Origin: a virus
Strand: one strand, 5' to 3'
IMG/VR virus record: IMGVR_UViG_3300017776_000272
Location: 1-20,543 of that record
DNA length: 20,543 bases
Both the position numbers and the translations under genes were made by a program. Shown piece by piece: positions 1-15,288 of this stretch. How positions within the stretch are numbered: position 1 is the stretch's first letter; each line of letters opens with the position of its first letter. The notes under the pieces are model-generated. The model was given only the letters and a program-made list of their open reading frames with translations. It did no database searches and had not been told where the DNA came from.

Positions 1-149
1 ATCCCTGTTCTTTGCATAAGGTATTTATGGCTTATCCTACATCCATGAGGGGCATTACGAAAAGAATAACAAATTAAATAGATTAATTTCTCATGACTAT
101 TTAAAACCTTATTGTTTAATAATAATTTATCAAATTTTTCAAAAGCCAT
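1..149 (-). CDS. HTH replication-type protein, N-terminal part
   Basis: An open frame starts with ATG at 149-147 and runs off the left edge, so only about 49 residues are visible (start MAFEKFDKLL; later CRISHKYLMQRTG). The pattern is a short lead-in, then 'EKLIYLICYSF', then a helix-turn-helix 'ISHKYLMQRTG'. It resembles the N-terminal winged-helix (HTH_36-like) domain of phage and plasmid replication-initiation proteins. Its ATG overlaps the TAA of the glycosyltransferase gene (TAATG), so it is the next cistron of the same leftward operon. It could equally be a transcription regulator with the same HTH. The missing C-terminus would decide. Confidence 0.6.
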   Translation of the reverse strand, partial: MAFEKFDKLLLNNKVLNSHEKLIYLICYSFRNAPHGCRISHKYLMQRTG

Positions 150-1021
150 TATAAAGAAATCTCCTTTAACACCATGCCATAGTTATTTACTCCTATAGGG
201 GTAATCAGATCTTTCTTTTTAATTGGTAAATTCTTTTTATAAGGTGAATAATCTACAAAGTGATGCCACCTATTAAAACGCCATACAACTTTAGCTACAT
301 CAGGGTGCATTTTTTCTAACATTTTTGATTTATTCATAGTTCCTTCTTCATCATAAAATTCTTTAGAGTTACCGCCACTGATCCTTTGTGTAGTAGCCTT
401 CTCTTGTAAGAAAGCATTAAATTGAAGGGTGCAATCTCCATCTTTTAAAACCCTTAAAGACAAATCAGTATCTTCGTTATATCTTCCTCTCCATCTATAT
501 TTAGTAGAGTTATCTATTAATAGTGTTGAGTAAATTCTTGTATTAAATAAAAATGGTGGATATTTCTCACTAGCTATACAAAACTTACAATAGTTAAATC
601 CACTTATCTTAACATTTTCGTACCGATCATGAAAATCTTCTGCAGCTTTAAATATTGTCCCAGTTTGTACTATGTTTTTTGCATTACGATTTAATCTATA
701 AAAATCATAAATATTATCATCCATAACCCAATGCTTTTTATGGCCATTACTTATGGAGTGTTCCCAACAAAAATTTCTTGCTGCACCTGGCCCTGTGCCG
801 TTGCCCTTGCCAATCTCATCATCAAAGATGTCATAATCTTTTTGGAATTGTTTATCTAATATTAAAACTTTAGACTCATCAATAACACTACAATATTGTT
901 CGTATTCTTGTTCCTCTACTACTACAAAATAAGGAACTTTCATTCTTTCTAAAGACTTAACGGTCAGCCTACTATCCCATCTAGCTTTAGAAACTACATA
1001 AATTGGATATTTAGGATTCAT
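149..1021 (-). CDS. TET-associated-type glycosyltransferase (TAGT-like)
   Basis: This 290-residue protein has a GT-A-like glycosyltransferase pattern. The N-terminus is a beta-alpha-beta unit (PIYVVSKARW, residues 6-15; YFVVVEE, 31-37). An arginine/asparagine motif GPGAARNFCW lies at 77-86, the metal/sugar-nucleotide motif WVMDDN at 98-103 (D101, D102), and a second acidic motif EDTDLSLR at 183-190, followed by GGNSKEFY. This arrangement matches, from memory, the TET-associated glycosyltransferase family described in phages, thought to glycosylate modified bases in DNA. The gene follows an MT-A70 methyltransferase and a small conserved protein, with an 11-nt overlap upstream, which supports a DNA-modification role. 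No TET/JBP dioxygenase or hydroxymethylpyrimidine synthase is visible, so the substrate base is unknown. Family assignment is fairly confident; substrate is not. Confidence 0.8.
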   Translation of the reverse strand: MNPKYPIYVVSKARWDSRLTVKSLERMKVPYFVVVEEQEYEQYCSVIDESKVLILDKQFQKDYDIFDDEIGKGNGTGPGAARNFCWEHSISNGHKKHWVMDDNIYDFYRLNRNAKNIVQTGTIFKAAEDFHDRYENVKISGFNYCKFCIASEKYPPFLFNTRIYSTLLIDNSTKYRWRGRYNEDTDLSLRVLKDGDCTLQFNAFLQEKATTQRISGGNSKEFYDEEGTMNKSKMLEKMHPDVAKVVWRFNRWHHFVDYSPYKKNLPIKKKDLITPIGVNNYGMVLKEISL

Positions 1022-1280
1022 CTTTGTCCAAGTACCTTTTGTTAAAATGATTTGCGAATTTAAGTTTTGGATGCCAAATACTTTTAGTTTTATTATTTAT
1101 ATCTTGCCCTATAAGTTTGGCAAAATTTTGAAGTTCTTCCTCACTATCAAACCTTACAATAATTTTGTGATAAGCCTCTTTAGGATATTGCTCAAACTCA
1201 GGCATCCCATCCCACTCTTTACGCCAATCCTCTTGTATCTCCTCTTGGCCAAACAAATTGTTTTGCTTATCATCACTCAA
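1011..1280 (-). CDS. Small conserved phage protein (KTKSIWHP motif)
   Basis: An 89-residue acidic-to-basic protein of unknown function. It has a conserved-looking core: WRKEWDGMPEF near the start, KIIVRFDSEEELQNFAKLIG in the middle and NKTKSIWHP near the end. I recognise this pattern from many phage genomes, often beside DNA-modifying or ParB-like genes, but no biochemical role is known to me. I prefer the TTG start at 1280-1278, which nearly abuts the methyltransferase TGA. A GTG at 1307-1305 would add nine hydrophobic residues (frame IIGVI) that look like read-through of the methyltransferase end. It lies between the methyltransferase and the glycosyltransferase and overlaps both. Confidence 0.75.
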   Translation of the reverse strand: MSDDKQNNLFGQEEIQEDWRKEWDGMPEFEQYPKEAYHKIIVRFDSEEELQNFAKLIGQDINNKTKSIWHPKLKFANHFNKRYLDKDES

Positions 1281-1815
1281 AATGATTACCCCAATTATCC
1301 CAACCACTTACTTTTTGTCTAGCAAAGAGTTCTATTCTTGGTTTATCTCCACATAATTGAACTATTCTATCTCTTGAACAATCTGGTTTTCTTGAGTGTT
1401 CTCTACGCTTATCAATAATTAATTGTTTTACATTTTTAAAAAATCTTTTTGGCTTACCTTTAGTGGCCAACAAACACATTTCTGGATTTGATCTTGTCCA
1501 ATAACCTAGCCCCATAAACAAGTTATCATTTGTTTTATTTTTTTTAGCCCAAGTAAAAGCAACTGTCTTATAGGTGAAACCCCATTTTTTAATAAGCTCA
1601 AAAGATTTCTCAAGTAAAGGATCAACAACCCACATAAACAATACGCAATCCACACTAGCAATACTGTTAATATCAAGATCCAATAGATCGTTAAATTCCA
1701 TACATGGATAATGTTTTGTAGCATTTCTTCCTTCTCCTTTTTTTGAATAACTTTTAAAATACCAGGGGGGATCTGCCAAAATTATATCGTATTTCTTTTT
1801 AGGAAAAGGAATCAT
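1273..1815 (-). CDS. MT-A70 family N6-adenine DNA methyltransferase
   Basis: A 180-residue protein with the hallmark DPPW catalytic motif at residues 15-18 (ILADPPWYF). A long methyltransferase core follows, including VLFMWVVDPLL, and it has the typical MT-A70 ending PRIELFARQ...GWDNWGNHFE. The family transfers a methyl group from S-adenosylmethionine to the N6 of adenine, and in phages usually acts on DNA. At 180 residues it is a compact but full-length member. Its ATG overlaps the TGA of the zinc-ribbon gene (ATGA), so the two are translationally coupled. It may protect phage DNA from host restriction or act with the downstream glycosyltransferase. The target sequence cannot be read from the protein. 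Confidence 0.93.
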   Translation of the reverse strand: MIPFPKKKYDIILADPPWYFKSYSKKGEGRNATKHYPCMEFNDLLDLDINSIASVDCVLFMWVVDPLLEKSFELIKKWGFTYKTVAFTWAKKNKTNDNLFMGLGYWTRSNPEMCLLATKGKPKRFFKNVKQLIIDKRREHSRKPDCSRDRIVQLCGDKPRIELFARQKVSGWDNWGNHFE

Positions 1816-2003
1816 GGCTTAACCACCTTTAGTAAAGTGTCATCTTCAATAACTTCTTTTGTTAATGTATTAATATTTTTACCAGTCCATTTACGACTTA
1901 AACAATCTGCACAATAATTAGTTCCCTTTTCAACCACATCAGCAGGATCACCACATTTTGAACAAACTCTAATATCACCAAAAATATTTATTTTATTTGC
2001 CAT
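1812..2003 (-). CDS. Small zinc-ribbon protein
   Basis: A 63-residue protein (start MANKINIFGD) with two CxxC knuckles, CSKC and CADC, about 16 residues apart, a classic small zinc ribbon. I chose the ATG at 2003-2001 because it forms a TAATG overlap with the upstream stop. A TTG three codons further upstream is possible. It ends in an ATGA overlap with the methyltransferase. Zinc ribbons of this size in phages usually bind nucleic acid or another protein. Its position directly before the methyltransferase suggests an accessory role in the modification cassette, but that is inference. Confidence 0.8.
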   Translation of the reverse strand: MANKINIFGDIRVCSKCGDPADVVEKGTNYCADCLSRKWTGKNINTLTKEVIEDDTLLKVVKP

Positions 2004-2512
2004 TAGTTCCAAGCCCCATTTTTTAGTAAGTCTATTGGCGTTAATAAATTAATTGGGATCGCATGGCATTTAGGCCTATTAGGAATATTAAAATCAGTTA
2101 AGTATTTTTCACTTCCCAATACATAAGTTGAATTTACAAAACCATGAATTTCAAAGATCGGTGCTTTGTCTATGACTAAAATATAAATCTCCCCTACCTT
2201 ACTTCCTTGAGGTCTAATAATTAGACTATTATTTTTTTTTGGTAATTGAGATCGTATTTGTAAATGAGTGTCATGAAATATAAGATCGGCATTGTTGCCA
2301 TGATTGACATGGTAAGTGTGTTCAATTTGTAAATATTTTGCAACCACTAATTCTGCTTGCGATCCACTTATTGATTTAGCAATTTTTTCATTAAGACTAC
2401 CTTTAAATCCATGCCCCCAATCATGACCAAGACGCATTGATTCATAGACTCTCATCAAACCATTTTGAGAAGTAATCATTAACTCATATAGGTCTAATTT
2501 TATTTCTATCAT
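2003..2512 (-). CDS. PD-(D/E)XK-like phage protein, degenerate active site
   Basis: A 169-residue protein resembling a widespread phage family with a PD-(D/E)XK nuclease-like core: helix motif SQAELVVAKYL (E54), then NADLIF (D76), then LQIRSQ at 84-89, where an active nuclease would have E/D-x-K. Strands SLIIRPQ and IYILVI follow, then a C-terminal part with PKCHAIPINLLTP. The active site would read E54, D76, Q85-x-R87, so catalysis is doubtful unless the family uses a variant site. It overlaps its neighbours by ATGA upstream and TAATG downstream. The fold call is from motif reading only. It could be a non-catalytic DNA-binding relative. Confidence 0.65.
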   Translation of the reverse strand: MIEIKLDLYELMITSQNGLMRVYESMRLGHDWGHGFKGSLNEKIAKSISGSQAELVVAKYLQIEHTYHVNHGNNADLIFHDTHLQIRSQLPKKNNSLIIRPQGSKVGEIYILVIDKAPIFEIHGFVNSTYVLGSEKYLTDFNIPNRPKCHAIPINLLTPIDLLKNGAWN

Positions 2513-2760
2513 CTAACCCAATTCCCATCTTTGTCTTTGCAATAATGTAAAAAAATTGGCTTACCTTCATAAACATAGTAACCCCACACTTCTCCGTTGC
2601 CTTCTTTGTAATTAGGATTTTCTACAAACTTTGTATTTTTCTCAAATGCTTGATCACAAGTTATTTTTTTTACACCTTGCGATATAGGAATTTTAATTAA
2701 GTGCATGGCTGGATTTACATCAGCACTTGCAACACCTAGTATTAAAAAAAAAATACTCAT
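2509..2760 (-). CDS. Small exported protein of unknown function
   Basis: An 83-residue protein beginning MSIFFLILGVASA followed by D, which reads as a short Sec signal peptide with a signal peptidase I site after ASA. The mature part has two cysteines (ITCDQ and LHYCKD), a GEVWGYYVYEGKPIF motif and a tryptophan near the end. It is probably periplasmic with one disulfide. It is the first clear cistron of the leftward operon, and its stop overlaps the next ATG. No strong Shine-Dalgarno sequence precedes the ATG. Superinfection exclusion or envelope action is possible but unsupported. The function is unknown. Confidence 0.65.
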   Translation of the reverse strand: MSIFFLILGVASADVNPAMHLIKIPISQGVKKITCDQAFEKNTKFVENPNYKEGNGEVWGYYVYEGKPIFLHYCKDKDGNWVR

Positions 2761-2990
2761 ATCAATAATTTGTGTTTTGATTCGTTAGGCCTACTAAATA
2801 AGCTGAAAAAAAATAAAACTTGTTGGGGAATTTTGTTGAATTTGTAGTTTAGAACTGTTTTAAAGAAGAAAATTTTTAAAAAATTAATTTTAACTTTATT
2901 AAATGATGGTCTAAAAACCTTGATTTTACTTATGTTTTCTCTCATTTTTATCATTATTAATTTTTAAATTTAATTATGAATCGTAAGTTA

Positions 2991-3020
2991 TTTATAAACC
3001 AATCTTAAACAAGTTGACAA
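2991..3020 (-). promoter_or_regulatory. Sigma70-like promoter for the leftward modification operon
   Basis: On the minus strand TTGTCA (3020-3015) is followed after 18 bases by TATAAA (2996-2991), a plausible -35/-10 pair. Its -35 box lies within the same GTTGACAAC palindrome that supplies the -35 box of the rightward promoter. The start site would leave a leader of over 200 bases before the first clear gene. Confidence 0.45.
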
Positions 3021-3047
3021 CCATTATTAAGTCAATGTAATGTCAAT
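3013..3047. promoter_or_regulatory. Operator-like repeats in the divergent control region
   Basis: GTTGACAAC at 3013-3021 is a perfect palindrome around a central A. GTCAAT occurs at 3031-3036 and again at 3042-3047, a spacing of 11 bases or about one helical turn. TTGACA (3014-3019) and TGTCAA (3041-3046) are inverted copies. This clustering over the -35/-10 area of both divergent promoters is what a phage repressor operator looks like. The binding protein is inferred, with the 236-residue HTH protein just downstream the obvious candidate. Confidence 0.45.
3014..3041 (+). promoter_or_regulatory. Promoter for the putative repressor gene
   Basis: A consensus TTGACA (3014-3019) is followed after 16 bases by TGTAAT (3036-3041). 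Transcription would start within a few bases of the ATG at 3050, and there is no Shine-Dalgarno sequence, so the message is probably leaderless. Lambda cI from PRM is the known parallel for a leaderless repressor mRNA. Confidence 0.45.
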
Positions 3048-3049
3048 AA

Positions 3050-3760
3050 ATGGATAATAAAAAAGAAATTAATTATTTGGATATAATGTATAGTCCAAAC
3101 AATATGAATAATAATGATTTTAGAAAAGAAGGATTAGAACTTTTAAAAAGTAAATATAAAAAAACAACTCAAGACTTTATTAAAGATACTTACCCAAAAA
3201 AAGAATGGGCTAACATGGAAGTTAAAATATCTAGGTTAATTAATAAACCTAAAAATGCACCTAAATATTATGATCATTTTCAATTAGCAAAAGATTTATC
3301 TAAATATTTTAACAAACATAGAACTAATGGAGATTTTTTTATTTCACCTAATTATTTTTTAGGAGAATCAAATTATATTAATATAGTTGGGGCAAGTTAT
3401 AGTAATGCTCAAGTTGGTTTATTTAAAAAAAATGAAATGAAAAAAGTTGGTGTTCCATCAAGATATAATGGTTATCATGCAATTACTTCAAAAAATCCTA
3501 TATCAAATGGAATGATAAGATTATTTAAACCTAGAAAGTTTGTTCATTTTGGGGCTGATAATAAATTTAGTTTGGCTCAAGATAAAAAAACTAAAATTAT
3601 TTGGATAGGTTTTTTAGAGCCTAGAAGTAATGGAAGATATGATATTTTAGATAAATCTTCATCAACAGGTAAAACAATCCAACCCTTGATTGAAGATATT
3701 AATTTGTCATGGTCATCACAAATTGAATATTCGTCTTTCCCACAATATTACGATTATTGA
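3050..3760 (+). CDS. Putative HTH transcriptional repressor (CI-like position)
   Basis: A 236-residue protein. Residues about 28-90 read like an XRE-type helix-turn-helix: KKTTQDFIKDTY, then ISRLINKPKNAPKYYDHFQLAKDL. The rest is beta-rich (YHAITSKN...GMIRLFKPRKFVHFG, KIIWIGFLEPRSNGRYDIL), comparable in size to the oligomerisation domain of CI/LexA-like repressors, but I cannot point to a Ser-Lys self-cleavage dyad. It sits alone behind operator-like repeats, divergent from the modification operon and probably on a leaderless message. All of this suits a lysogeny repressor. The assignment rests on context and a weak HTH pattern and could be wrong. Confidence 0.5.
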   Translation: MDNKKEINYLDIMYSPNNMNNNDFRKEGLELLKSKYKKTTQDFIKDTYPKKEWANMEVKISRLINKPKNAPKYYDHFQLAKDLSKYFNKHRTNGDFFISPNYFLGESNYINIVGASYSNAQVGLFKKNEMKKVGVPSRYNGYHAITSKNPISNGMIRLFKPRKFVHFGADNKFSLAQDKKTKIIWIGFLEPRSNGRYDILDKSSSTGKTIQPLIEDINLSWSSQIEYSSFPQYYDY

Positions 3761-3814
3761 CACTTATCATTGAGTATTAAGTGAATTGACTTTTAATATC
3801 AATTAGCTTATTAC
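3761..3814 (+). promoter_or_regulatory. Promoter and inverted repeat before the recombination operon
   Basis: TTGACT (3786-3791) is followed after 17 bases by TATTAC (3809-3814), putting the start of transcription at or next to the ATG at 3821. Just upstream, CACTTA (3761-3766) and TAAGTG (3778-3783) form an inverted repeat with an 11-base loop. The sequence TTATTGAC (3754-3761), inverse of GTCAATAA seen in the other control regions, runs into it. This looks like a regulated early promoter. Confidence 0.5.
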
Positions 3815-3820
3815 TCTTGG

Positions 3821-4054
3821 ATGAGCAAGAGAATCAAAATAATAGGTGACTGTTATAAAAAATTTAATTTAAAACACACTTCCAAATCACAAAATACAAT
3901 TCCAGAAGATATACGATTTAGAAATTATATCGTAATGACCACTAAAGAAAAAATGAATATGCCAAAATCATCTTCATTTGAAGGTGGAACTTTGATTCAT
4001 GAAATTGTTCAAGCCCATTTAGTTAAAAAAATAAAACTTGAGGAAATATCATGA
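3821..4054 (+). CDS. RecB/Cas4-like exonuclease, N-terminal piece (motif I)
   Basis: A 77-residue ORF whose C-terminal half contains GGTLIHEIVQAHL (H60, E61), the typical helix motif I (G-x-x-x-H-E) of RecB/Cas4-type PD-(D/E)XK exonucleases. The remaining motifs are on the next ORF, which starts at an ATGA overlap, so this looks like the first part of one nuclease made as two chains. There is no Shine-Dalgarno sequence. The promoter just upstream implies a leaderless message. A short motif-I protein has no obvious function alone, so it should act with the next gene product. A sequencing error cannot be excluded, but the second ORF has its own ribosome binding site. Confidence 0.7.
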   Translation: MSKRIKIIGDCYKKFNLKHTSKSQNTIPEDIRFRNYIVMTTKEKMNMPKSSSFEGGTLIHEIVQAHLVKKIKLEEIS

Positions 4055-4722
4055 TAGAAAAAATTGTTGAAAGAATAGAAAACTATACACCAACTGATGA
4101 AAAAGATGGTTTTAAATTTGAGAACATAGTTAAAAATAGAAATTTAATTTCTCAAAATCACATAGATAATATTAATGAATTACCAAAGCAAGAATGGGAA
4201 GAAGAAAAAGAATTTACCCATTGGGATGAGCAAGGAAGAATCCAAACTTATTTTTTATGTTATGTAGATTTAATTGGTGCTGCAGTTGATCAAACAATGA
4301 AGTCTTATTTTGGAGATATTAAAAATGTTTTTGGAACTGTAATGACTACAAAAAAAGGATTGTCTTACACAAAAAAGAAATGTCCGACCAAACCATTTCA
4401 TAGTGATTGCCTTCAAATTGCCTTATATCAAAAAGTTTTACCAAACCATATCCCCTTTTTAACTTATGCAAGTGATTATGATAGAAAACTTTTTACTCCT
4501 GATAATTGTGAGGAATTACAAAAAGATAATCTTGAAAAATATTATAACGAATTAGTTTTATATCAAAGATGTTGGGAAAAGAAATTAGAGTTTGCCAATG
4601 GTGATCCAAAAGTTTTGGCTTTACTTTGTAAGCCTGACTTTAGTGAAATAAGAAAAAATGGTTTTTGGTGGAAGGGTTTCCCAAAAGAAATTACTCAAAG
4701 ATTTAGAGGATATTATGAATGA
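4051..4722 (+). CDS. RecB/Cas4-like exonuclease, catalytic piece
   Basis: A 223-residue protein carrying the later motifs of a PD-(D/E)XK exonuclease: YVDLIG (D73), GDIKNV (D89-x-K91) and LQIALYQ (Q122...Y126), in the family order. The missing motif I is on the 77-residue ORF upstream. GAGG at 4040-4043 lies seven bases before the ATG and serves as a Shine-Dalgarno sequence inside the upstream gene, so coupled re-initiation is plausible. Paired with the Rad52-like protein encoded two genes later, it would resect double-strand ends for single-strand annealing recombination, as in lambda Red-type systems. The cysteines (C70, C111, C120) do not form a clear Fe-S ligand set. Confidence 0.75.
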   Translation: MIEKIVERIENYTPTDEKDGFKFENIVKNRNLISQNHIDNINELPKQEWEEEKEFTHWDEQGRIQTYFLCYVDLIGAAVDQTMKSYFGDIKNVFGTVMTTKKGLSYTKKKCPTKPFHSDCLQIALYQKVLPNHIPFLTYASDYDRKLFTPDNCEELQKDNLEKYYNELVLYQRCWEKKLEFANGDPKVLALLCKPDFSEIRKNGFWWKGFPKEITQRFRGYYE

Positions 4723-4903
4723 TCAAGGAATTATAAAACCTTTACGCCAAAGAATTAAAGATTTGGAAACAATTAATGATGCTCATCAAAAAAAGAATGG
4801 CCAATTAAGAGTTGAAATTCAAGACAAAGATAAAAAAATTCAAGAACTACAAGAACAAATAACAAACCCAACCAAAAAAATGAGAGATAAAGGACAACTA
4901 TGA
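4715..4903 (+). CDS. Small coiled-coil protein
   Basis: A 62-residue charged protein (start MNDQGIIKPL). Heptad-like leucines and isoleucines run through LRQRIKDLETINDAH and LRVEIQDKDKKIQELQEQI, which predicts one long coiled coil. The ATG at 4715 is chosen because AGAGGA lies a few bases upstream and it overlaps the nuclease stop. An in-frame ATG at 4658 lacks this support and lies deep in the nuclease gene. It ends in an ATGA overlap with the annealing-protein gene. It may be an adaptor between nuclease and annealing protein, but nothing in the sequence proves that. Confidence 0.7.
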   Translation: MNDQGIIKPLRQRIKDLETINDAHQKKNGQLRVEIQDKDKKIQELQEQITNPTKKMRDKGQL

Positions 4904-5544
4904 GTAAAGAAAAAACATTGGAGAGTGCAATACAAGAATTTAAAAATGGAATTAAGCAAAGCGATTATGTAAAGCTAGGTGCTAAAGGGGAATACCTTAC
5001 AGTTCCTTATCGTATAAAATTTGTAAGAGAATATTTTGGAAATAGATTACAAATTGTAACTTTTAGTAGTGAGTTGGCCAATGGCTCTAGTAAATTTAGA
5101 GCAAGTGTTTTATTAGATGGCAAAGAATTAAGCGTTGGTGAATCAAAACAAATGCTAAATAGAGATAAAGAGTTTGAAAAGGCTCAAACAGTCAGCGTTG
5201 GTAGAGCCTTAAGTATATTAGGTTTTATGGGTAATGAGATCGCTACCGCGGAAGAAATAGAGGATTTTATTAAAGATAGAGAGCCACCTAAACAAGTAAA
5301 AAAAGTAATAAAAAATATTCCAACACCTACTAAAGATACAAAAATAGTAGCTAATGAATGGATTGCTAAACTTAAAGAACAAGCAAAGCACTCCGTAGGT
5401 GTCAATAAATTTGAGCAAGGGATTCAATCATTATCAAATGAATATTTAGATGAACTTAAACAAATAGCCCTTGATCCTCTTGAGGAATTAAGAGTTGAGC
5501 AAGAATACAATAAACTTAAAACACAAATACAAGGAAGGAAATAA
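4900..5544 (+). CDS. Rad52-like single-strand annealing protein
   Basis: A 214-residue protein. Residues about 25-125 match the beta-beta-beta-alpha pattern of Rad52/ERF/Sak-type annealing proteins: YLTVPYRIKFVREYFG, LQIVTFSSELANG, FRASVLLDGKELS, then the family-typical VGRALSILGFMGNEIATAEEIEDF. A charged linker (PKQVKKVIKNIPTPTKD) and a helical tail follow. Such proteins anneal complementary single strands during phage recombination and replication, normally with an exonuclease encoded next to them, here the split RecB-like nuclease. AGGA precedes the ATG and the start overlaps the coiled-coil gene. The exact subfamily is uncertain. Confidence 0.75.
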   Translation: MSKEKTLESAIQEFKNGIKQSDYVKLGAKGEYLTVPYRIKFVREYFGNRLQIVTFSSELANGSSKFRASVLLDGKELSVGESKQMLNRDKEFEKAQTVSVGRALSILGFMGNEIATAEEIEDFIKDREPPKQVKKVIKNIPTPTKDTKIVANEWIAKLKEQAKHSVGVNKFEQGIQSLSNEYLDELKQIALDPLEELRVEQEYNKLKTQIQGRK

Positions 5545-5545
5545 G

Positions 5546-5797
5546 ATGGCTGACGATAAATACGATAATAGTTTGGCGTTATGGAAAAGACAAAAAAGAG
5601 ATACTGATGTTGCAGGTAAGGCTTATCCACATTACCAGGGCAAGATGACCGTAGATGGCAAAGCAAAAGATGTAGCTATTTGGCTTAATACAAATAAGAC
5701 AAAAGAAGGACAACCTGACATGAGTGGAAAAATTAAACCACCTTATGTTAAAGGTGAACAAGGTGAGCAAGGTGGTCAAGATGAGGCTCCGTTTTAA
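5546..5797 (+). CDS. Conserved small early phage protein
   Basis: An 83-residue protein starting MADDKYDN behind a strong AAGGAAGGA ribosome site. An in-frame ATG at 5495 lies inside the annealing-protein gene and is rejected. The pattern LWKRQKRDTDVAGKAYPHYQG, then MTVDGKAKDVAIWLN, then SGKIKPPY resembles a very common phage early protein family. I know that family only as hypothetical, though the strand pattern would suit a small OB-type or similar beta domain. The tail EQGEQGGQDEAPF is acidic and ends like the acidic tips of single-strand DNA-binding proteins. An SSB-like role next to an annealing protein is attractive but not shown. Confidence 0.7.
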   Translation: MADDKYDNSLALWKRQKRDTDVAGKAYPHYQGKMTVDGKAKDVAIWLNTNKTKEGQPDMSGKIKPPYVKGEQGEQGGQDEAPF

Positions 5798-6102
5798 TGG
5801 ATAACGAAAGTGTTAATCCACCTCATTATAAAAAGGCCATACCAACTTGTGATGCCATTTTATCTCAACAAACCCATGAGGAAAATATTGGTTACTTAAA
5901 GGGTGCTGGTCTAAAGCACCTTTTTCGTTTTGGTGCAAAGCATGGAACATCAGTAGATAGTATCATTATGGATTTAGAAAAATGCTTATGGTATTTAAAA
6001 AAATTGTTGAATTACCTCAAAGCCTTAAAAGATGATGGAATGGATGTAAAACAAACCAAAGAGAATGTCACAAATTTATTTAAGAAGGATGATAATGAAT
6101 AA
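5797..6102 (+). CDS. DUF3310 protein (T7 gp1.7-related)
   Basis: A 101-residue protein with the DUF3310 signature: VNPPHYKK at the start, then GYLKGAGLKHLFRFGAKHG and DLEKCLWYLKKLL. The domain is widespread in phages and occurs in T7 gp1.7, which is reported to be a nucleotide kinase. Here only the short domain is present, so enzymatic activity is uncertain. The ATG overlaps the preceding stop (TAATG). It probably acts in early nucleotide or DNA metabolism in the cytoplasm. Confidence 0.85.
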   Translation: MDNESVNPPHYKKAIPTCDAILSQQTHEENIGYLKGAGLKHLFRFGAKHGTSVDSIIMDLEKCLWYLKKLLNYLKALKDDGMDVKQTKENVTNLFKKDDNE

Positions 6103-6379
6103 AGATTATATTTATTTAAGTGAAATTAAATGGAAAGTTCTCCAATACATAAATAATTTTACTCAAGAAAAAAAATTTAGTCCTACCTATAAAGAAATTG
6201 CAGAGTCGCATAATTTTTCTAGGGCTAGAGCAGGTGCAATATGTGGAGAGTTATTTAAGTTAGGATTAATTTCTAAAGGTAAGTCAGCTCATAGAAAGAT
6301 TAGATTATCAAGAAAACAAGTTAATTTAATTCCAACCTTACATTTTAACAAAGAATATCCAACAATGAAAGTCCATTAA
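6095..6379 (+). CDS. LexA-type winged-helix protein without protease domain
   Basis: A 94-residue protein that matches the N-terminal DNA-binding domain of LexA: KWKVLQYINNFTQEKKFSPTYKEIAESHNFSRARAGAICGE and LFKLGLISKGKSAHRKIRL, including the P-T-x-x-E-I-A turn and the basic wing. LexA's self-cleaving domain is absent, so it cannot respond to RecA by cleavage. It could compete for LexA-type sites or have its own operators. The ATG at 6095 has AAGGA upstream. ATGs at 6065 and 6089 are weaker choices inside the DUF3310 gene. It is one of three regulator-like proteins in this operon. Confidence 0.85.
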   Translation: MNKDYIYLSEIKWKVLQYINNFTQEKKFSPTYKEIAESHNFSRARAGAICGELFKLGLISKGKSAHRKIRLSRKQVNLIPTLHFNKEYPTMKVH

Positions 6380-6567
6380 TGAGCAAAGCTATTAAAGAAT
6401 CTTTTTATGAAATTAATGCAAAGTTTGAAGAAGAATTTGAAACAGTGGAGAAAGCCCACTCATCAAATAAACCAAGTGAAAATGCTAAAGTAGATGTCAT
6501 TGACATTAAATTAGAAAAATCAAGAGTTAAATTAAAACAAGGAGAGAAAGAAGATGGGAAACAATAA
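6379..6567 (+). CDS. Small acidic protein of unknown function
   Basis: A 62-residue charged protein (MSKAIKESFYEINAKFEEEFETVEKAH at the start, split here by residues 17-20 rich in E). It is mainly helical and has no cysteines or membrane segment. Its start overlaps the upstream stop as TAATG and its end overlaps the XRE regulator gene by 14 bases, so it is co-translated with both. I do not recognise a family. Its position between two DNA-binding proteins suggests a regulatory partner or antirepressor-like peptide, which is inference only. Confidence 0.65.
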   Translation: MSKAIKESFYEINAKFEEEFETVEKAHSSNKPSENAKVDVIDIKLEKSRVKLKQGEKEDGKQ

Positions 6568-6955
6568 AAAATCATTTTTTTTAACAAGCAAACAACAAGA
6601 AATAAATATAGCTATTGGTAAAAGATTAAAACAAGCAAGGCTAGGAAGAAAAATAATTATAGATGGTAGTAATAAAGAAAGAATAAGACCATGCACTCAA
6701 ACTGAATTAAGTAAAAAATTAGATTGTACTTTTCAGCAAGTTCAAAAATATGAAAAAGGCTCAAATACTATGTGTACTTTAAAAATGGTTTTGGCTAGTA
6801 AGTTTTTAAATATTCCATTGGATTCATTTACAAACATTTACGATCTTCATGTTGGCCAAAATACTACATTCACTCTTGATATGTGTGATGATGAAAAATT
6901 GTTAAGTGAAAGTAAGCAACTTGATGATAGTCCTACAAGTAAGGATTTAAATTAG
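6554..6955 (+). CDS. XRE-family HTH regulator
   Basis: A 133-residue protein with a Cro/CI-type helix-turn-helix at about residues 20-92: IGKRLKQARLGR (helix 1), a 12-residue insertion, CTQTELSKKLDCTFQQVQKYEKG (helices 2-3, recognition helix around TFQQVQKYE), then MVLASKFLNIPLDSF. The insertion between helices 1 and 2 contains KERIRP and is unusual for such a short protein. The C-terminal tail is acidic (CDDEKLL, DDSPTSKD). GGAGAG precedes the ATG. As the last larger gene of the early operon it could be a Cro-like or late regulator acting on the repeated operator motifs. Confidence 0.85.
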   Translation: MGNNKKSFFLTSKQQEINIAIGKRLKQARLGRKIIIDGSNKERIRPCTQTELSKKLDCTFQQVQKYEKGSNTMCTLKMVLASKFLNIPLDSFTNIYDLHVGQNTTFTLDMCDDEKLLSESKQLDDSPTSKDLN

Positions 6956-6973
6956 CTTACATAAGTTGTAAAT

Positions 6974-7030
6974 AGAGAGGGAGAGGTTTCATTATTTAGC
7001 TCTCTTATTGTTAATTCCTCTCTCTCTTTT
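6974..7030 (+). terminator. GA/CT-rich hairpin, possible terminator or attenuator
   Basis: AGAGAGGGAGAGG (6974-6986) can pair with CCTCTCTCTCT (7017-7027), and TTTT follows at 7027-7030, which resembles a factor-independent terminator after the XRE gene. A second pyrimidine tract, GCTCTCTT (6999-7006), can pair with the same purine arm, so two alternative hairpins are possible. A 56-residue gene begins only two bases after the T run. The element may therefore control its expression rather than simply end transcription. Confidence 0.5.
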
Positions 7031-7032
7031 AT

Positions 7033-7203
7033 ATGTATTTTATAATTCATAAGCCTAAAGATAAATTCACTTCATTCACTAATGTTGTTTTCTCAACGGA
7101 CAAAGAGGCTAGAGAATTTGCAAAAAAAAGTATTAAAAAAAAAATAGAATGGGATGTAGTCCTCTATGATAAAGAGAACTACGATAAATATTGGTACGCT
7201 TAA
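7033..7203 (+). CDS. Small 56-residue protein with beta-alpha-beta pattern
   Basis: A short frame with clear coding character: MYFIIHKPKDKFTSFTNVVF (strands), STDKEAREFAKKSI (helix), EWDVVLYDKENY (strand), ending KYWYA. Its layout resembles the 60- and 82-residue proteins encoded on the opposite strand around the integrase gene. No Shine-Dalgarno sequence lies before the ATG. Instead the start follows the T run of the GA/CT hairpin. It is convergent with the integration operon. The function is unknown. Confidence 0.6.
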   Translation: MYFIIHKPKDKFTSFTNVVFSTDKEAREFAKKSIKKKIEWDVVLYDKENYDKYWYA

Positions 7204-7268
7204 TTAGTTATTAAATAATAAGTAATTGCCACCAACTCTATAATTATAAAAGCCTCAAGCATTTTTAA
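7204..7268. terminator. Convergent gene end with weak hairpin
   Basis: The rightward early operon and the leftward integration operon meet here. AAAAGC followed by a five-base loop and GC-A-TTTTT (about 7249-7268) forms a short imperfect stem with A and T tails on both strands, which could act as a weak bidirectional terminator. Little else is visible. Confidence 0.3.
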
Positions 7269-7437
7269 TAGACTCCACATTTTTAACAAATTGCTTTGCA
7301 TCTTTTTCATTTATAAAAAACTTTTGTGAAAAACTCATATTATTTACAGCATTAATAAACTTTTTAAGTTTTATTTTTTTTGTTCTTTTATTGCCAAATT
7401 TAATCCTATAAACATATAAATTACTTTTTGTGGTCAT
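7255..7437 (-). CDS. Small basic protein downstream of integrase
   Basis: A 60-residue lysine-rich protein. Strands LYVYRIKFGNKRTKKIKL and FSQKFFI are followed by a helix EKDAKQFVKNVESI. GGAGAG lies just before the ATG, as with the other genes of the operon, and the integrase stop is only seven bases upstream, so it is co-transcribed. Its strand-strand-helix form resembles the 56- and 82-residue neighbours. An excisionase-like or DNA-bending role is conceivable for a small basic protein beside an integrase, but there is no recognisable Xis winged helix. Confidence 0.65.
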   Translation of the reverse strand: MTTKSNLYVYRIKFGNKRTKKIKLKKFINAVNNMSFSQKFFINEKDAKQFVKNVESIKNA

Positions 7438-7444
7438 ATCTCTC

Positions 7445-8623
7445 CTAATAATTAAATTGTTGATTTTGCCAATCGCTTTTGTCTAACTCCAAACTTTTTG
7501 TTTCATAAGGCTTGATGTAGGTACGATTAACAAAATTTATGTCTTTATCTCCAAGTGCTTTTGCCAAGTCCATTGGATCTGTGTATTTTTTATTTTTAGC
7601 CCACAAAGTCGCTGTGTAGTGGCGGAAAAAGTAGCACTTCCGATTAATAGGTAGTTGCAATCGCATTTTAGCTAAAGCCTTGTCTAAATGGCTAATAAGT
7701 ACCTTTAAAGCTATGTATTGATTAAGATTACTTTTAAATAGACTATTTTGATCTTTTGGAAGTTCATCTACATATTTTCTTAATCTATCTCTTAAACTTG
7801 AAGAAATAATTAAATCTCTTTTACCACCTTTAGTTTTTGGTAGTCCTAAAGTTCCATTTCTTTTTACAGCACTATTTATAGTTATGTAAGCACCTTGATT
7901 AGAGTCTAAATGTAAATGATGTCTAGCAAGACCTCTAGCCTCACTTGGCCTACAAGCTGTCTCTAACATAATAAAAAATAATAATTTAACTTGAGGATGA
8001 GGAATTAGTTCTATTAGTTGAACTATTTTATCTATTGTCCAATAATCAAAATCTATTGGATCAAACTCTCTATTGTATATTTCAATGTCAGATAAAAAAT
8101 CTTGAGAGTTGCAAGGGTTTTTATTAATTTTATTTTTACTAACTGAATAATCTATAATTGTTTTAAATACATTATAAATTTTACTTAATGTTTTAGAGTT
8201 GATTTGACCATTATTAACTTTCTCCTCTAAATTATCTACAAAATCAACTATGTTATTTTTATCAATTAATCTTATGTCTTGGCTTTGAAAGTGTGGAAAT
8301 ATATGATTTCTATAAAAGCTATCATAATCTTTAAGACAACTCTTGGAAGGCTTTCCATAATTTTTTTCTTTATATAATTGTCTATTGTACCATAGTTCGT
8401 ATGCTTGAACATAAAACCAAGATTTAGAATTGGTTTTAATAAAACCTTCTTCTTCAATCTTATCAACAATAGCTAACTTTAAATCTTTTTTATTTATTCT
8501 TGTTAAAAATTTAGGCTTACTATCTCTACCTGTATAAGCAATTCTCCATTTAGTTTTGCCATCTATTTCAACAGGCTCAATATTATTATATTCTATTTTC
8601 TGGGGGGTATTCTCTTGGCTCAT
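7445..8623 (-). CDS. int: Tyrosine-recombinase integrase
   Basis: A 392-residue phage-type integrase. Residues about 65-165 form the SAM-like core-binding domain (WFYVQAYELWYNRQ ... NVFKTIIDYSVSKN). The catalytic domain follows: R225 in ETACRPSEARGL, a lysine of the beta-hairpin in LPKTKGGKRDL (K263-K268), box II CYFFRHYTATLWA with R334 and H335, and the probable nucleophile Y369 in FVNRTYIKPY. The box II histidine (H-x-x-R) is Y331, and the usual G-H before the nucleophile is G358-D359, so it is a divergent member. AGGAGAG precedes the ATG. The partial tRNA-Asn about 700 bases upstream is the likely attP. Confidence 0.93.
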   Translation of the reverse strand: MSQENTPQKIEYNNIEPVEIDGKTKWRIAYTGRDSKPKFLTRINKKDLKLAIVDKIEEEGFIKTNSKSWFYVQAYELWYNRQLYKEKNYGKPSKSCLKDYDSFYRNHIFPHFQSQDIRLIDKNNIVDFVDNLEEKVNNGQINSKTLSKIYNVFKTIIDYSVSKNKINKNPCNSQDFLSDIEIYNREFDPIDFDYWTIDKIVQLIELIPHPQVKLLFFIMLETACRPSEARGLARHHLHLDSNQGAYITINSAVKRNGTLGLPKTKGGKRDLIISSSLRDRLRKYVDELPKDQNSLFKSNLNQYIALKVLISHLDKALAKMRLQLPINRKCYFFRHYTATLWAKNKKYTDPMDLAKALGDKDINFVNRTYIKPYETKSLELDKSDWQNQQFNY

Positions 8624-8810
8624 TTCTCTCTCCTATATTTTCATTTTTAATTAATTCATTCCAACTCTTACAAAGATCAGTGACAATTAATGGTAAGCTA
8701 GTTTTAAATACAGCGTCAGGCTTATCTTTGAAAGTGTGCATTTTTCTCACAAGTATATCAAGTGATCTTGATACATTCTCAATCTTCTCTATTTCATTAT
8801 TTGTACTCAT
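8586..8810 (-). CDS. Small protein overlapping the integrase start
   Basis: A 74-residue mainly helical protein (MSTNNEIEKIENVSRSLDI; LPLIVTDLCKSWNELIKNE) whose 3' end overlaps the integrase start by 38 bases. GGAG lies nine bases before its ATG. I do not recognise the family. The overlap makes integrase translation likely to depend on it. It may be a directionality or regulatory factor by position only. Confidence 0.65.
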   Translation of the reverse strand: MSTNNEIEKIENVSRSLDILVRKMHTFKDKPDAVFKTSLPLIVTDLCKSWNELIKNENIGERNEPREYPPENRI

Positions 8811-8815
8811 TTTCT

Positions 8816-9064
8816 TTACTCCTCTCTAATAGTTTTAAGTAAAGCCCAATTCGTATCTTTAACACTATAAATAAGTATCTTTGCTTTTGGGTTTTTACTT
8901 ACTATTAGTTTTCCATTTGTTATAGCCTCATCTAAAGTTTTATATTCAGTTGACTTTTGTTTTCCTAAAGGCTTGTAGTCAACCAAAGTATAATGTTGAG
9001 CATGGCTAATGGCCTCTTGTTCTCTAACATTATGACCTTCAATCGTATTCATTTTCATAACCAT
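8816..9064 (-). CDS. Small protein, first gene of the integration operon
   Basis: An 82-residue protein with AGGAGAG directly upstream of ATG at 9064-9062. The second half reads as strand-strand-helix-strand: YTLVDYKPLGKQ, EYKTLDEAITNGKLIVSKN, AKILIYSVKDTNWALL. This is similar in plan to the 56- and 60-residue neighbours, and TLDEAI-type helices are common in small phage proteins. In-frame ATGs three and five codons downstream are alternative starts. It is transcribed from a strong promoter about 40 bases upstream and leads the operon ending in the integrase. The function is unknown. Confidence 0.7.
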   Translation of the reverse strand: MVMKMNTIEGHNVREQEAISHAQHYTLVDYKPLGKQKSTEYKTLDEAITNGKLIVSKNPKAKILIYSVKDTNWALLKTIREE

Positions 9065-9103
9065 AATCTCTCCTTTATGTTATATACGCTTGTTTATAAC
9101 CTG

Positions 9104-9132
9104 ATTATATGTGAATGATAAGCGAATTGCAA
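9104..9132 (-). promoter_or_regulatory. Strong sigma70-like promoter of the integration operon
   Basis: On the minus strand TTGCAA (9132-9127) is followed after exactly 17 bases by a consensus TATAAT (9109-9104). Transcription would start near 9097, giving a leader of about 33 bases that includes the AGGAGAG ribosome site. Two direct repeats abut the -35 box from upstream. Confidence 0.7.
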
Positions 9133-9166
9133 TAGTCAATAAACCCTTAATTATAGTCAATAAACC
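9132..9166. repeat. Tandem 14-base direct repeats, 21-base period
   Basis: ATAGTCAATAAACC occurs at 9132-9145 and 9153-9166, identical in both copies and spaced by 21 bases (two helical turns). The repeats touch the -35 box of the integration promoter and lie about 160-190 bases from the presumed attP core. They could be regulator sites or arm-type integrase sites. The core GTCAATAA also occurs in the divergent control region (3042-3049) and, inverted, at 3754-3761. Confidence 0.75.
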
Positions 9167-9303
9167 TTTATTATTGTAAAATATAATAAAAATATATTTT
9201 TTAAGAGTATTGATTCGATATAAATTTTTAAAAAAAAATTCTTTTTCCTTATATTTAGCCGTAAAAAAAAGTGGCCTACATATCATTAAAGATATATAAG
9301 CCT

Positions 9304-9309
9304 TATAAT
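9304..9309 (+). promoter_or_regulatory. -10 box in front of the tRNA fragment
   Basis: TATAAT at 9304-9309 lies 16 bases before the first base of the tRNA-Asn fragment, the right place for a tRNA promoter. The -35 region around 9281-9286 (TATCAT) is poor. If the phage restores the tRNA on integration, this phage-borne promoter would drive it. Confidence 0.4.
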
Positions 9310-9325
9310 TGTTTAAAAAGTTTAT

Positions 9326-9368
9326 TCCTCGGTAGCTCAGTTGGTAGAGCAGTTGACTGTTAATCAAT
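9326..9368 (+). tRNA. 5' half of tRNA-Asn(GTT), presumed attP core
   Basis: The 43 bases read as the first part of a tRNA: acceptor strand TCCTCGG (9326-9332), TA, D-arm GCTC...GAGC (9335-9350), then an anticodon arm with stem GTTGA (9352-9356) and TCAAT (9364-9368) around loop CTGTTAA, anticodon GTT at 9359-9361. The sequence agrees well with bacterial tRNA-Asn. After the anticodon arm no T-arm or 3' acceptor strand follows, so it is not a complete gene. Fragments like this next to an integrase gene normally mark the phage attachment site. Confidence 0.85.
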
Positions 9369-9581
9369 GTATAGCCCCAATAACTAGCTTTAATCCTATT
9401 CTTTTTAGAAAAAGTATAAAATTAATATTTTTTTTCATTTTTTTTACATTCATTACATATAACCAATGTGAATCAAACGATAACACAATGCTAGGTAAAA
9501 TCAAATGTAATTTCCCACCCAAACCCTCTAACAAAGTTAGAACAAAGCCATATAATAATATGAGCCACCTATTCTTAAATT
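9369..9581. other. Non-coding stretch after the late operon
   Basis: This is the space between the tRNA fragment and the last late gene. It holds the palindrome CTTTTT-AG-AAAAAG (9401-9414), T-rich runs near 9430-9450, and a perfect short hairpin TCTAAC-AAA-GTTAGA (9527-9541). No good gene is seen. The hairpin and T runs may help end leftward late transcription before it enters attP, but no single canonical terminator stands out. Confidence 0.45.
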
Positions 9582-9725
9582 CTATGAAGTTCTATATGCT
9601 TTAGCACTTATGGTACTTTTGGCTTTTGACCGACTAATACCTTTTTTCTTTCTCCGATTTACATTAAACCAAAGACCTTTTTTTGCAATTTTTCCAGATT
9701 TAGTTTTGTGGTAACCTTTTTTCAT
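9582..9725 (-). CDS. Very small basic phage protein
   Basis: A 47-residue protein (MKKGYHKTKSGKIAKKGLWF at the start, then NVNRRKKKGISRSK). It is strongly basic, with the pattern YHKTKSGK...KKGLWFNVNRRKKKG...SRSKAKSTISAKAY. I recognise this pattern as a recurrent tiny protein of marine phages. AAGGAT lies upstream of the ATG, and the gene overlaps the preceding one by 26 bases. It is the last gene of the late operon. Its charge suggests nucleic-acid binding; the function is unknown. Confidence 0.7.
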   Translation of the reverse strand: MKKGYHKTKSGKIAKKGLWFNVNRRKKKGISRSKAKSTISAKAYRTS

Positions 9726-9900
9726 TCTTATCCTTTATTAGTTGTTTAAAGTATTGTTTTCTATCGCACTCAAAATGAGCATGAGTCTTGTCATGAAAAG
9801 CTAAAAAACTCATATCGTTTGTAATAGGTTTATTACATACTCTACATTCACCTACTTGAATTATAGTTGTAGGTTTAGCCCATAATTTTTTAGTTGCCAT
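9700..9900 (-). CDS. Small zinc-finger-like protein
   Basis: A 66-residue protein with ECRVCNKPI (C19, C22) and, about 20 residues later, HDKTHAHFECDRKQ, giving C-x2-C plus His/Cys ligands for one zinc. The tail KQLIKDKNEKRL is basic. Its ATG directly abuts the TAA of the upstream DUF5872-like gene. It is probably a DNA- or protein-binding accessory protein. No specific family is recognised. Confidence 0.7.
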   Translation of the reverse strand: MATKKLWAKPTTIIQVGECRVCNKPITNDMSFLAFHDKTHAHFECDRKQYFKQLIKDKNEKRLPQN

Positions 9901-10161
9901 TTATCTCCATGCTTTTCTTGACCAATAATTAGCAGATAGAGTTTTTTGGCCTTTAGTCTTAATCCCACCACTTCTAGCTAAATAACTTTTTCTAGCTTTA
10001 GGATTGTTTTTTCTGATCTTCATGTTGGGATCACCAAAAGTAACTTTATTAACTTTGCCTGTCTTTTGATTTTTTACATAAACACCACTCTTTTTAGAAC
10101 TACCTTGAGGCAATCTAAAAGGTTTATTGAGTGTTACTTTTTTTCCTTGATATTCAGCCAT
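9901..10161 (-). CDS. DUF5872-like small basic protein
   Basis: An 86-residue basic protein. It has the series GVYVKNQKTGKVNKVTFGDP, NMKIRKNNPKARKSYLAR and NYWSRKAWR, which matches the DUF5872 pattern (GDPNM-x-I-R...KSYRAR...YWS-x-KAW) common in phages. Most members carry a cysteine-containing centre. Here that part is GGIKTKGQK, without cysteine. The function is unknown. It is coupled to the upstream gene by TAATG and to the zinc-finger gene by a direct abutment. Confidence 0.8.
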   Translation of the reverse strand: MAEYQGKKVTLNKPFRLPQGSSKKSGVYVKNQKTGKVNKVTFGDPNMKIRKNNPKARKSYLARSGGIKTKGQKTLSANYWSRKAWR

Positions 10162-10382
10162 TATGTATTTACTTTCGGTATTTCTTCACAAACAAATTTC
10201 ATGTAAGCACCTTGTTTATTTACAAACTCTCTACTCATATTAGAAATCATTTTGTGTGAAAAATCATAACCGAATGAAACACAATCATAATGATCTTTAA
10301 AATTGTCTAATGGTAAAGGAACTTGTTGACATTTGTTTCCATCAATCACACTACAAATAACCATGACTAAAACAAAATCCAT
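10161..10382 (-). CDS. Small cysteine-containing exported protein
   Basis: A 73-residue protein with a hydrophobic start MDFVLVMVICSVIDG and four cysteines (C10, C18, C34 and the one in FVCEE). The pattern resembles small secreted or periplasm-facing proteins found near the lysis genes of marine phages. The first segment is short for a membrane helix and may be an uncleaved anchor. Starts right after the stop of the 41-residue gene. The role is unknown; lysis accessory is a guess from location. Confidence 0.65.
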   Translation of the reverse strand: MDFVLVMVICSVIDGNKCQQVPLPLDNFKDHYDCVSFGYDFSHKMISNMSREFVNKQGAYMKFVCEEIPKVNT

Positions 10383-10508
10383 TTATTTTTTCTTTCTTCC
10401 TAAATAATGTTCTGATGGCTCATAATCCCATCTTTTTCCATGATGGCCTCTTATATCTGCATAAAACATTCTTAATTTGACTATTAATTTTTTAGTTACT
10501 AACCACAC
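10383..10508 (-). CDS. Tiny basic protein, GTG start
   Basis: A 41-residue frame that begins GTG at 10508-10506, immediately after the holin-like gene's TAA, and ends directly before the next ATG. It reads (V)WLVTKKLIVKLRMFYADIR, then GHHGKRWDYEPSEHYLG, then RKKK. The RGHHGKRWDY...EH motif looks conserved and coding. The tight fit between neighbours supports it. An ATG at residue 14 is an alternative start. The function is unknown. Confidence 0.6.
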   Translation of the reverse strand: MWLVTKKLIVKLRMFYADIRGHHGKRWDYEPSEHYLGRKKK

Positions 10509-10886
10509 TTATTTTCTCTTAATTAAATCTGTTGCTTTTAATCCGTAAACACTAGCTATGACACCAACAAAAATTGTTTGATACCAAAACGGAAGATTAC
10601 CAAAATGTTCAAAAAATAGATTCATCTTTTCCATGTGTTTTGGATTATCTGACCATACAGAAAATGCTAACATTCCAATCGGCAGACTCAGTAAGACCAA
10701 AATAAATTCATCTTTCCAGTCAGAGTTTCTACTTTCTAAAAGTTTTCCTTGATATTCTGCTTGACCGTTGGCCATTTTTTCAGCATGGTGCATTTGTGCA
10801 TCTGCCATTAACATTTTAGTTTTTTGTTTATTTTTATATATATGACTACCTGCTTGAACAGCTAGTTTAATTGCACTTAACCACAT
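10509..10886 (-). CDS. Holin-like membrane protein (GTA_holin_3TM type)
   Basis: A 125-residue protein starting MWLSAIKLAVQAG at the TAATG overlap with the endolysin stop. An ATG nine codons upstream lies inside the endolysin and is rejected. The first half is a charged helix (KQKTKMLMADAQMHHAEKM). The second half has two membrane segments, FILVLLSLPIGMLAFSV and TIFVGVIASVYGLKA, preceded by the typical WKDE. This fits the gene-transfer-agent/phage holin family, which permeabilises the inner membrane. Being the neighbour of the endolysin strengthens the call. Confidence 0.75.
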   Translation of the reverse strand: MWLSAIKLAVQAGSHIYKNKQKTKMLMADAQMHHAEKMANGQAEYQGKLLESRNSDWKDEFILVLLSLPIGMLAFSVWSDNPKHMEKMNLFFEHFGNLPFWYQTIFVGVIASVYGLKATDLIKRK

Positions 10887-11371
10887 TATGATTTTACCTT
10901 TCCGTCTTTCCATTCCATTTCTGGTAGTCCGTTGGAATAGGTCTTGCCATCAAATGTTAAGACTTGTTTTCTATTAGTACCTTTTTCATTGTAAGACACA
11001 TGAATCCAACCAGCATTTGCATCACCTTTTTTATAAAATTCTAAAATAAGCTGATCAAAGTCACAGTTGTTTTCAATCCAATAAGCTACTTGAATATTGG
11101 GTACTCCAATAATTTCAAAATCTGTTGCCATTCCTTTACAATGCTGTGATGTAGTTTTTGATCCAATAGCCTCTGAAAGTTTTGGGCTACGATAACCACT
11201 TGTTATAATAACTGGTTTTTCAAACTTGGCTCTAACTGGCTCAAGTATTTCATAAGCCACATTTTCTAGGTTTTTTATTTCCCCAGATCCTGGCATATTA
11301 TCTATACCATTCCGTGTAGCCACCATTGATTTAGTAAATTCTTCTAGCTTAAAGTGTTTTGATAACTGCAT
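10886..11371 (-). CDS. Endolysin, M15-family peptidase
   Basis: A 161-residue peptidoglycan peptidase of the Peptidase_M15 (D-Ala-D-Ala carboxypeptidase/VanY-like) type. It has FKLEEFTKS at the start, PVIITSGYRSP (53-63), the zinc motif SQHCKGMATDFE (H77, D84), DQLILE (catalytic-type E111) and GWIHVSY (third zinc ligand H124). Nearly the whole protein is the catalytic domain, with no signal peptide or cell-wall-binding domain, so export depends on a holin. AGGA precedes the ATG. It cleaves the peptide stems of host murein at the end of infection. Confidence 0.92.
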   Translation of the reverse strand: MQLSKHFKLEEFTKSMVATRNGIDNMPGSGEIKNLENVAYEILEPVRAKFEKPVIITSGYRSPKLSEAIGSKTTSQHCKGMATDFEIIGVPNIQVAYWIENNCDFDQLILEFYKKGDANAGWIHVSYNEKGTNRKQVLTFDGKTYSNGLPEMEWKDGKVKS

Positions 11372-11377
11372 ATATTC

Positions 11378-12252: not shown

Positions 12253-12268
12253 ATCTAAACTCCATAAG

Positions 12269-15272: not shown

Positions 15273-15288
15273 AATATTCCTTTTTTAA

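Follow-up and report, generated by a model that had tools for sequence, protein, structure and literature searches.

A small conserved domain linked to phage TAGT glycosyltransferases is a candidate partner in DNA glycosylation

Glycosyltransferases of the TAGT subfamily found in the virus record IMGVR_UViG_3300017776_000272 are almost always encoded with a small conserved domain, to which they are often fused. We analysed this record over its entire length of 20,543 bases (the window), which is probably a fragment. A sequence-only reading had noticed in it three overlapping genes, for a glycosyltransferase, a small protein and an MT-A70 methyltransferase, and had proposed that they form a DNA-modification cassette. 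The domain of the small protein, which runs from W-x-x-M-P-E to K-T-K-S-I-W-x-P and is called here the partner domain, was linked to TAGT in 178 of 187 distinct loci, the rest being cut or partial. We lean towards the view that the pair is a two-component DNA glycosyltransferase, in which an acidic obligate partner and a catalytic TAGT would add sugar to phage DNA. The locus is a real, conserved variant of a known enzyme family, and the surprise lies in its obligate partner and in the missing acceptor pathway.

Linkage and fusion of the partner domain with TAGT

The 187 loci (142 viral or phage and 45 genomic) were obtained by removing copies from a pool of two viral scans, one starting from TAGT (best 80 of at least 597 confirmed matches) and one starting from the domain (best 80 of 137), a TAGT scan of bacterial genomes (45 loci), the loci of the first viral scan and eight isolate phages. 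Nine loci found by scanning with a TAGT paralogue taken from one of the operons are outside this set, and what we say of linkage covers the window's TAGT subfamily, not TAGTs in general. In 136 loci TAGT directly follows the domain, in 27 the two share one open reading frame (ORF; ORFs are taken as read, and sequence errors might have split or merged some), and 15 have the domain at another place on the same strand. These 15 comprise three loci in which TAGT comes before the domain and overlaps it, eleven with one intervening ORF and one (L211) with a partial match at a contig end. TAGT stands without the domain in eight loci, six of which have fewer than 300 bases upstream, while the other two (L212 and L219) are partial TAGT matches; in one more locus, the domain is at a contig end and TAGT is not reached. 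Just one domain call, counted among the 27 fused cases (L193), had a best domain E-value above 1e-3.

Fusion has occurred repeatedly. On a 90-sequence tree the fused state takes 10 changes by parsimony, and well-supported branches force at least 7 of them; in this tree the bootstrap had yet to settle, 28 of the inner branches are left open and the row of T6 is very long. The stretch that carries KTKSIWxP takes up the first 101 to 140 residues of the TAGT polypeptide itself in isolate phages of Aeromonas, Tenacibaculum, Pectobacterium, Shewanella and Vibrio; the motif is degenerate in Kuja. Near-universal linkage and repeated fusion bear out the earlier suggestion, made from the window alone, that the small protein is a candidate partner. 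Since the subfamily almost always comes with this unnamed domain, often in one polypeptide, co-expression of the two is advisable, and a failure of TAGT alone would not be conclusive.

We also considered whether the partner might be a generic, widespread small domain, which is ruled out by the absence of any match to its profile in 397 other Pseudomonadota genomes; the single match was in the centre genome, which had been chosen for holding the locus. Within the same 398 genomes, TAGT scored above the cut-off in the centre genome only, and eight others had matches below it (E 3.6e-5 to 8.4e-4), without the domain. Because TAGT exceeds the cut-off only there, this control shows specificity and not independent co-occurrence. 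In each of five genomes chosen for holding the locus, the partner domain occurs exactly once. A hand-made consensus of the domain matched 20 phage records, and a TAGT match was found alongside in all 20.

Some isolates show variations on this arrangement. In Vibrio phage henriette 12B8 (L014:7300-9000), the partner domain and TAGT are in different frames and both are unannotated, which reflects a genuine split or else an error in the sequence. In POP12 and Aeh1 (L011:6852-7031 and L013:6894-7094), a second, stand-alone match of 59 to 66 residues to the partner-domain profile comes directly after the fused gene.

The partner can itself be extended. It carries an N-terminal ParB-like region in 36 of 186 TAGT loci (local profile, E up to 0.01), 35 times as a separate protein and once (L198) within a single ORF that joins ParB, domain and TAGT. 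When six of these were scanned with Pfam, ParB_N was above the cut-off in L073, L155 and L162, below it in L076 and absent from L049 and L070; Pfam found no ParB_N on the window's own partner. The genomic loci of this type are on contigs assigned to Pseudomonadota, Bacteroidota, Acidobacteriota, Verrucomicrobiota, Planctomycetota, Actinomycetota and Chloroflexota, whose hosts are unsure since many are metagenome bins. At L155:3218-4522, a single ORF holds a PF04488 DXD-type sugar transferase domain, ParB_N and the partner domain, and TAGT follows.

The two proteins and their known relatives

That the glycosyltransferase is a TAGT, as had been proposed, is upheld by its match to PF20691 at 153.4 bits (cut-off 27.5) over residues 5-213. 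No other Pfam family, including those of the T4 alpha- and beta-glucosyltransferases (PF11440 and PF09198), is listed for it at E up to 1, so that no lipopolysaccharide or polysaccharide glycosyltransferase family fits it better. The motifs named before are present, with MDDN at residues 100-103 and EDTD at 183-186. In an alignment of 92 sequences (the window's and 91 representatives), D101, D102, N103, E183 and D184 are kept in all 92 and T185 in 88. We take the acidic residues of DDN (101-103) and EDT (183-185) to be the active-site motifs expected of a TAGT. A PDB sequence search with the window TAGT gave nothing better than E 0.13, and a plasmid search made alongside it returned no match at 1e-10. 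A GT-A fold is predicted for TAGT from a model of the fused relative L077, not of the window protein. Built from 11 sequences, this model has a predicted local distance difference test score (pLDDT) of 65 and a predicted template modelling score (pTM) of 0.72, its partner part being of low confidence. Through its TAGT part it aligns to GT-A glycosyltransferases of the GT2 type with Z scores reaching 11.5, many of them tied, the first row having a root mean square deviation of 4.3 over 192 residues. Foldseek alone gave no match to it at E of 0.001 or below.

The window's small protein matches no Pfam family, and 101 members of the partner family gave scattered weak Pfam matches, the best having E 0.0033 among the 25 families listed. 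Modelled alone, the partner reached pLDDT 78 and pTM 0.46, and in BFVD four matches to this model had E of 0.001 or below, two labelled uncultured Caudovirales phage and two nameless. Such weak or absent structure matches do not demonstrate a new fold. The median isoelectric point is 5.2 for the partner (n = 90, range 4.2 to 10.4) and 9.2 for TAGT (n = 95), and we count this complementary charge, with an acidic partner and a basic TAGT, in favour of the two-component reading. A role of the partner as a basic DNA-binding domain is not favoured, since the partner is acidic, which is weak evidence.

How does this pair compare with known systems? Iyer et al. 2013 reportedly predicted TAGT and dealt with TAGTs of phages that are associated with TET/JBP. 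Those enzymes have the family name and profile in common with the window's; the window and its relatives gave no TET/JBP match, in searches without a working control. Earlier, TAGTs had been described as known from phages that encode TET/JBP base oxidases, which is too narrow, because the second glucosyltransferase of T6 is also a TAGT. Known DNA glycosyltransferases use hydroxylated bases or sugars already present as acceptors. The TAGT of T2 and T6 (beta-glucosyl-HMC-alpha-glucosyltransferase) adds glucose to already glucosylated cytosine (hmC) and has a GT-A fold in a model of the T6 enzyme, according to the available part of PMC13216743; the available part of PMC13390438 also has the T6-type TAGT as likely to add a second glucose. 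The T6 enzyme (ggt) belongs to PF20691 like the window's, at 35.8 bits, but it adjoins the gp42 hydroxymethylase, none of which was found in the window clade, and the surrounding 15 kb are without the partner domain (best E 0.14), which the window clade has.

In the same part of PMC13216743, solitary TAGTs are reported from 288 of 753 phage genomes, which means that hundreds of them have a TAGT without the alpha- or beta-glucosyltransferase that prepares the T6 substrate. The window enzyme fits this description, and the partner domain is not named in that part. The fused relative in Aeh1 (locus tag Aeh1p093) carries partner and TAGT as one protein of 399 residues, whereas the window has two overlapping genes; it is presumably the glucosyl transferase Aeh1ORF087c, listed with "unknown base" in Table 2 in the available part of PMC8056088, where Iyer et al. 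2013 is given as the source. Our literature searches with TAGT and ParB met no mention of the partner or of a ParB link, and the word ParB does not occur in the available parts of PMC8056088 and of the main text of PMC13216743; Iyer et al. 2013 or other papers outside these searches may already mention it. Solitary TAGTs are thus already in print, while the partner and the ParB link were not met in the literature searched.

Proposed activity, acceptor and alternatives

In the two-component reading, TAGT would be catalytic, with a GT-A fold and presumably dependent on a nucleotide sugar. The partner domain, supplied by an overlapping gene or in the same polypeptide, would dock on TAGT or complete it, either of which could be its exact job. 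Sugar would be moved from the nucleotide sugar to phage DNA, most likely to its bases, and might block host nucleases. Expression would probably be early, since the genes sit just before a replication-initiator-like gene. The acceptor is probably neither TET-oxidised 5-methylcytosine nor 5-hydroxymethylcytosine from a thymidylate-synthase-type phage enzyme. Extra TAGTs, methyltransferases and nucleotide-sugar epimerases in the operons of certain other phages hint that the sugar may be elaborated further there.

A conventional pathway, which is possible and on balance doubtful, would have an unrecognised phage or host enzyme make a hydroxylated base to which TAGT adds the sugar, the partner being a processivity or targeting subunit. 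This would agree with the acceptors of known DNA glycosyltransferases, the T2/T6 case among them, and many of the genes that these phages carry belong to no family. However, the thymidylate-synthase-type family PF00303 had no match in the window or in any of 40 further viral records that hold the pair. Its control worked, T6 giving thymidylate synthase (td) in two pieces and gp42 at 56 bits. PF12851, for TET/JBP, had no match in 18 and in 42 records that included the window, nor in 396 genomes from the phylum to which G049, the Frankia metagenome bin containing L187, belongs, an absence that is weaker than that of PF00303 since no positive control for PF12851 ever rang. The same two families, with the same limit on PF12851, found nothing in the window together with a nearly identical longer contig, G001. 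The earlier claim that no hydroxymethyl-base synthase is present therefore holds for the window, about 12.1 kb more of nearly identical phage and the 40 other records. Its companion claim, that there is no oxidase, agrees with the lack of PF12851 matches over the window and the same 12.1 kb and is tempered by the silent control, and the idea that an oxidase sits elsewhere in the genome is made less likely by the longer contig. Nor does any conserved third gene go with the pair, the commonest other family within eight genes being found in 18 of 142 loci.

Among the eight isolates, PF00303 matched in six, and most of these matches look like thymidylate synthase itself. Neither PF00303 nor PF12851 has a match in Vibrio phages 1.124 and 1.076, which are recorded as partial genomes of about 48 kb each, and 121 of their 143 annotated proteins, scanned against Pfam, included no base hydroxylase among the 25 families listed out of 63. 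Two matches speak for the conventional pathway, namely a second, weak thymidylate-synthase match in Tenacibaculum phage PTm1 (L012, NC_049340, 123231-123866; 37 bits, with an internal stop) and, on the tail side of Vibrio 1.124 (L173:18011-18661), a short protein like C5-cytosine methylases (PF00145, 29.5 bits, residues 5-111 only).

The PTm1 match also weighs against the two-component reading, as does a second thymidylate-synthase match in Aeh1, which at 18.6 bits misses the cut-off; each of the two might be a base-modifying synthase. On the same side are that the records searched with PF00303 may be fragments, that PF12851 lacked a working control, that Foldseek found no match for the partner model in the PDB at E up to 10, leaving its fold unsettled, and that we found no biochemistry on the window's TAGT clade. 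Since this is so and T6 ggt scores so low on the family profile, DNA as the substrate rests on distant relatives. Two further points of this kind concern the substrate: the GT2-like fold is common to polysaccharide and protein glycosyltransferases, and the fused gene of Vibrio phage 1.076 (L174:6534-7703) is between portal and head-morphogenesis genes. Because this copy lies among virion genes, a protein substrate could fit it.

A bolder form of the two-component reading, of which we are more doubtful than of the conventional pathway, has the partner, with or without its ParB-like domain, supply the chemistry, such that TAGT would glycosylate an unmodified base or the partner would make the acceptor. 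One or two proteins would then be a complete DNA glycosylation system, independent of TET oxidases and hydroxymethylases, in phages and in contigs, many of them metagenome bins, that are assigned to seven or more bacterial phyla; at times the system would extend to methylated oligosaccharides. Should the pair indeed act on plain DNA, this would open a new way to coat DNA with sugar and might serve as a tool.

It is unlikely that the pair glycosylates protein, RNA or a surface glycan (a virion protein, host factor or receptor) rather than DNA. The GT2-like fold, the epimerases and non-DNA-type methyltransferases beside some copies and the copy inside the head-gene block of Vibrio 1.076 would suit such a substrate, but Pfam gives only TAGT, the gene of the window phage comes just before a replication-initiator-like gene, and several immediate neighbours in other loci are replication, recombination or packaging genes.

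Finally, we consider it very improbable that the three genes form one cassette, with MT-A70 making N6-methyladenine as the acceptor for TAGT: the genes overlap and their order (MT-A70, small protein, TAGT) is fixed in nine of nine close relatives, some of them near-copies of one another and one (L005) with an extra TAGT between the genes, but MT-A70 is linked in only 15 of 142 viral or phage loci, in 14 of them directly upstream of the partner. Among 79 immediate upstream genes on the same strand, taken from representatives with less than 75% TAGT identity, MT-A70 was found in one of the 75 scanned (L005, L184, L194 and L211 being left out), which, with the gene of L005, makes two known cases among the 79. 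The methyltransferase is lineage-specific, and its earlier placement as a core member of the cassette has to be given up.

The gene run, the phage and neighbours in other loci

The three overlapping ORFs are on the minus strand where they had been described, with Pfam scores far above chance, and end a run of six mostly overlapping genes from 2760 to 149 (Table 1). The small protein and TAGT overlap by 11 nucleotides, MT-A70 and the small protein by 8 or 35, depending on the start of the small protein, whose shorter version is the one read earlier. The methyltransferase scores 110.6 bits against PF05063 (cut-off 23.9), has the DPPW motif named before, and is a member of the phage MT-A70 methyltransferases with nothing unusual about it.

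Table 1. Features of the window, with positions and supporting matches
Feature	Position	Strand	Matches and remarks
TAGT glycosyltransferase, 290 aa	149..1021	-	PF20691 E 1e-44; phrog_842 E 1.2e-53
Partner (small) protein, W-x-x-M-P-E ... K-T-K-S-I-W-x-P domain	1011..1307	-	98 aa from GTG; 89 aa from TTG at 1280
MT-A70 family methyltransferase, 180 aa, DPPW	1273..1815	-	PF05063 E 1.1e-31; phrog_359 E 3e-80
Zinc-ribbon-like protein, 66 aa	1812..2012	-	zinc-ribbon matches sub-threshold only; family at equivalent place in 12 loci
Conserved phage protein, 169 aa	2003..2512	-	phrog_18407 E 2.6e-8; family at equivalent place in 12 loci
83-aa protein of the run	2509..2760	-	family at or near equivalent place in 11 loci
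Tail-fibre-like protein	18962-19996		phrog_24898

Part of the genome is outside view, since the record has only 20,543 bases. Contig G001 (29,166 bases), in reverse orientation, has 99.74% identity to window positions 1-11286 and 99.95% to 11234-17033, and by arithmetic from these aligned spans it extends about 12.1 kb beyond the window's left edge. On G001, the replication-initiator-like gene comes directly after TAGT and is followed by terminase, portal and scaffold genes (PHROGs); further on, we take a 318-residue ORF to be coat-protein-like and other ORFs to be tail-side, judging only by position. The window itself has an integrase (PHROGs), a weak DNA-ejection match and the tail-fibre match, and further tail genes are probably outside view, since another ORF is cut by the record's right end. 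The 843-residue protein and the integrase had no match among phage isolates at 1e-3 and 1e-5. Together, window and G001 look like a temperate podovirus with about 32.7 kb in view.

Other loci have different genes next to the pair. Nine of the 11 ORFs between partner and TAGT were scanned (L005 and L137 being left out). Four of them resemble methyltransferases of non-DNA type (one FkbM type, one just at the cut-off), that of L120 is a second TAGT, that of L075 matches a DNA-methyltransferase PHROG, that of L196 is a weak GT-B-like glycosyltransferase match short of the cut-off, and those of L129 and L135 belong to no family. The intervening ORF of L005 is a TAGT by the local profile, and in L159 TAGT itself is fused to a methyltransferase domain. 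Immediately downstream, NAD-dependent epimerases account for three of the 70 genes scanned out of 71. Operons with second TAGTs, methyltransferases and epimerases suggest that some phages elaborate the sugar. Similar proteins of 276-278 residues precede the fused gene at L186:1253-2083, whose protein fell into no family when scanned on its own against Pfam and PHROGs, and at L192:4478-5314, and one that is like them by eye is at L206:6514-7344.

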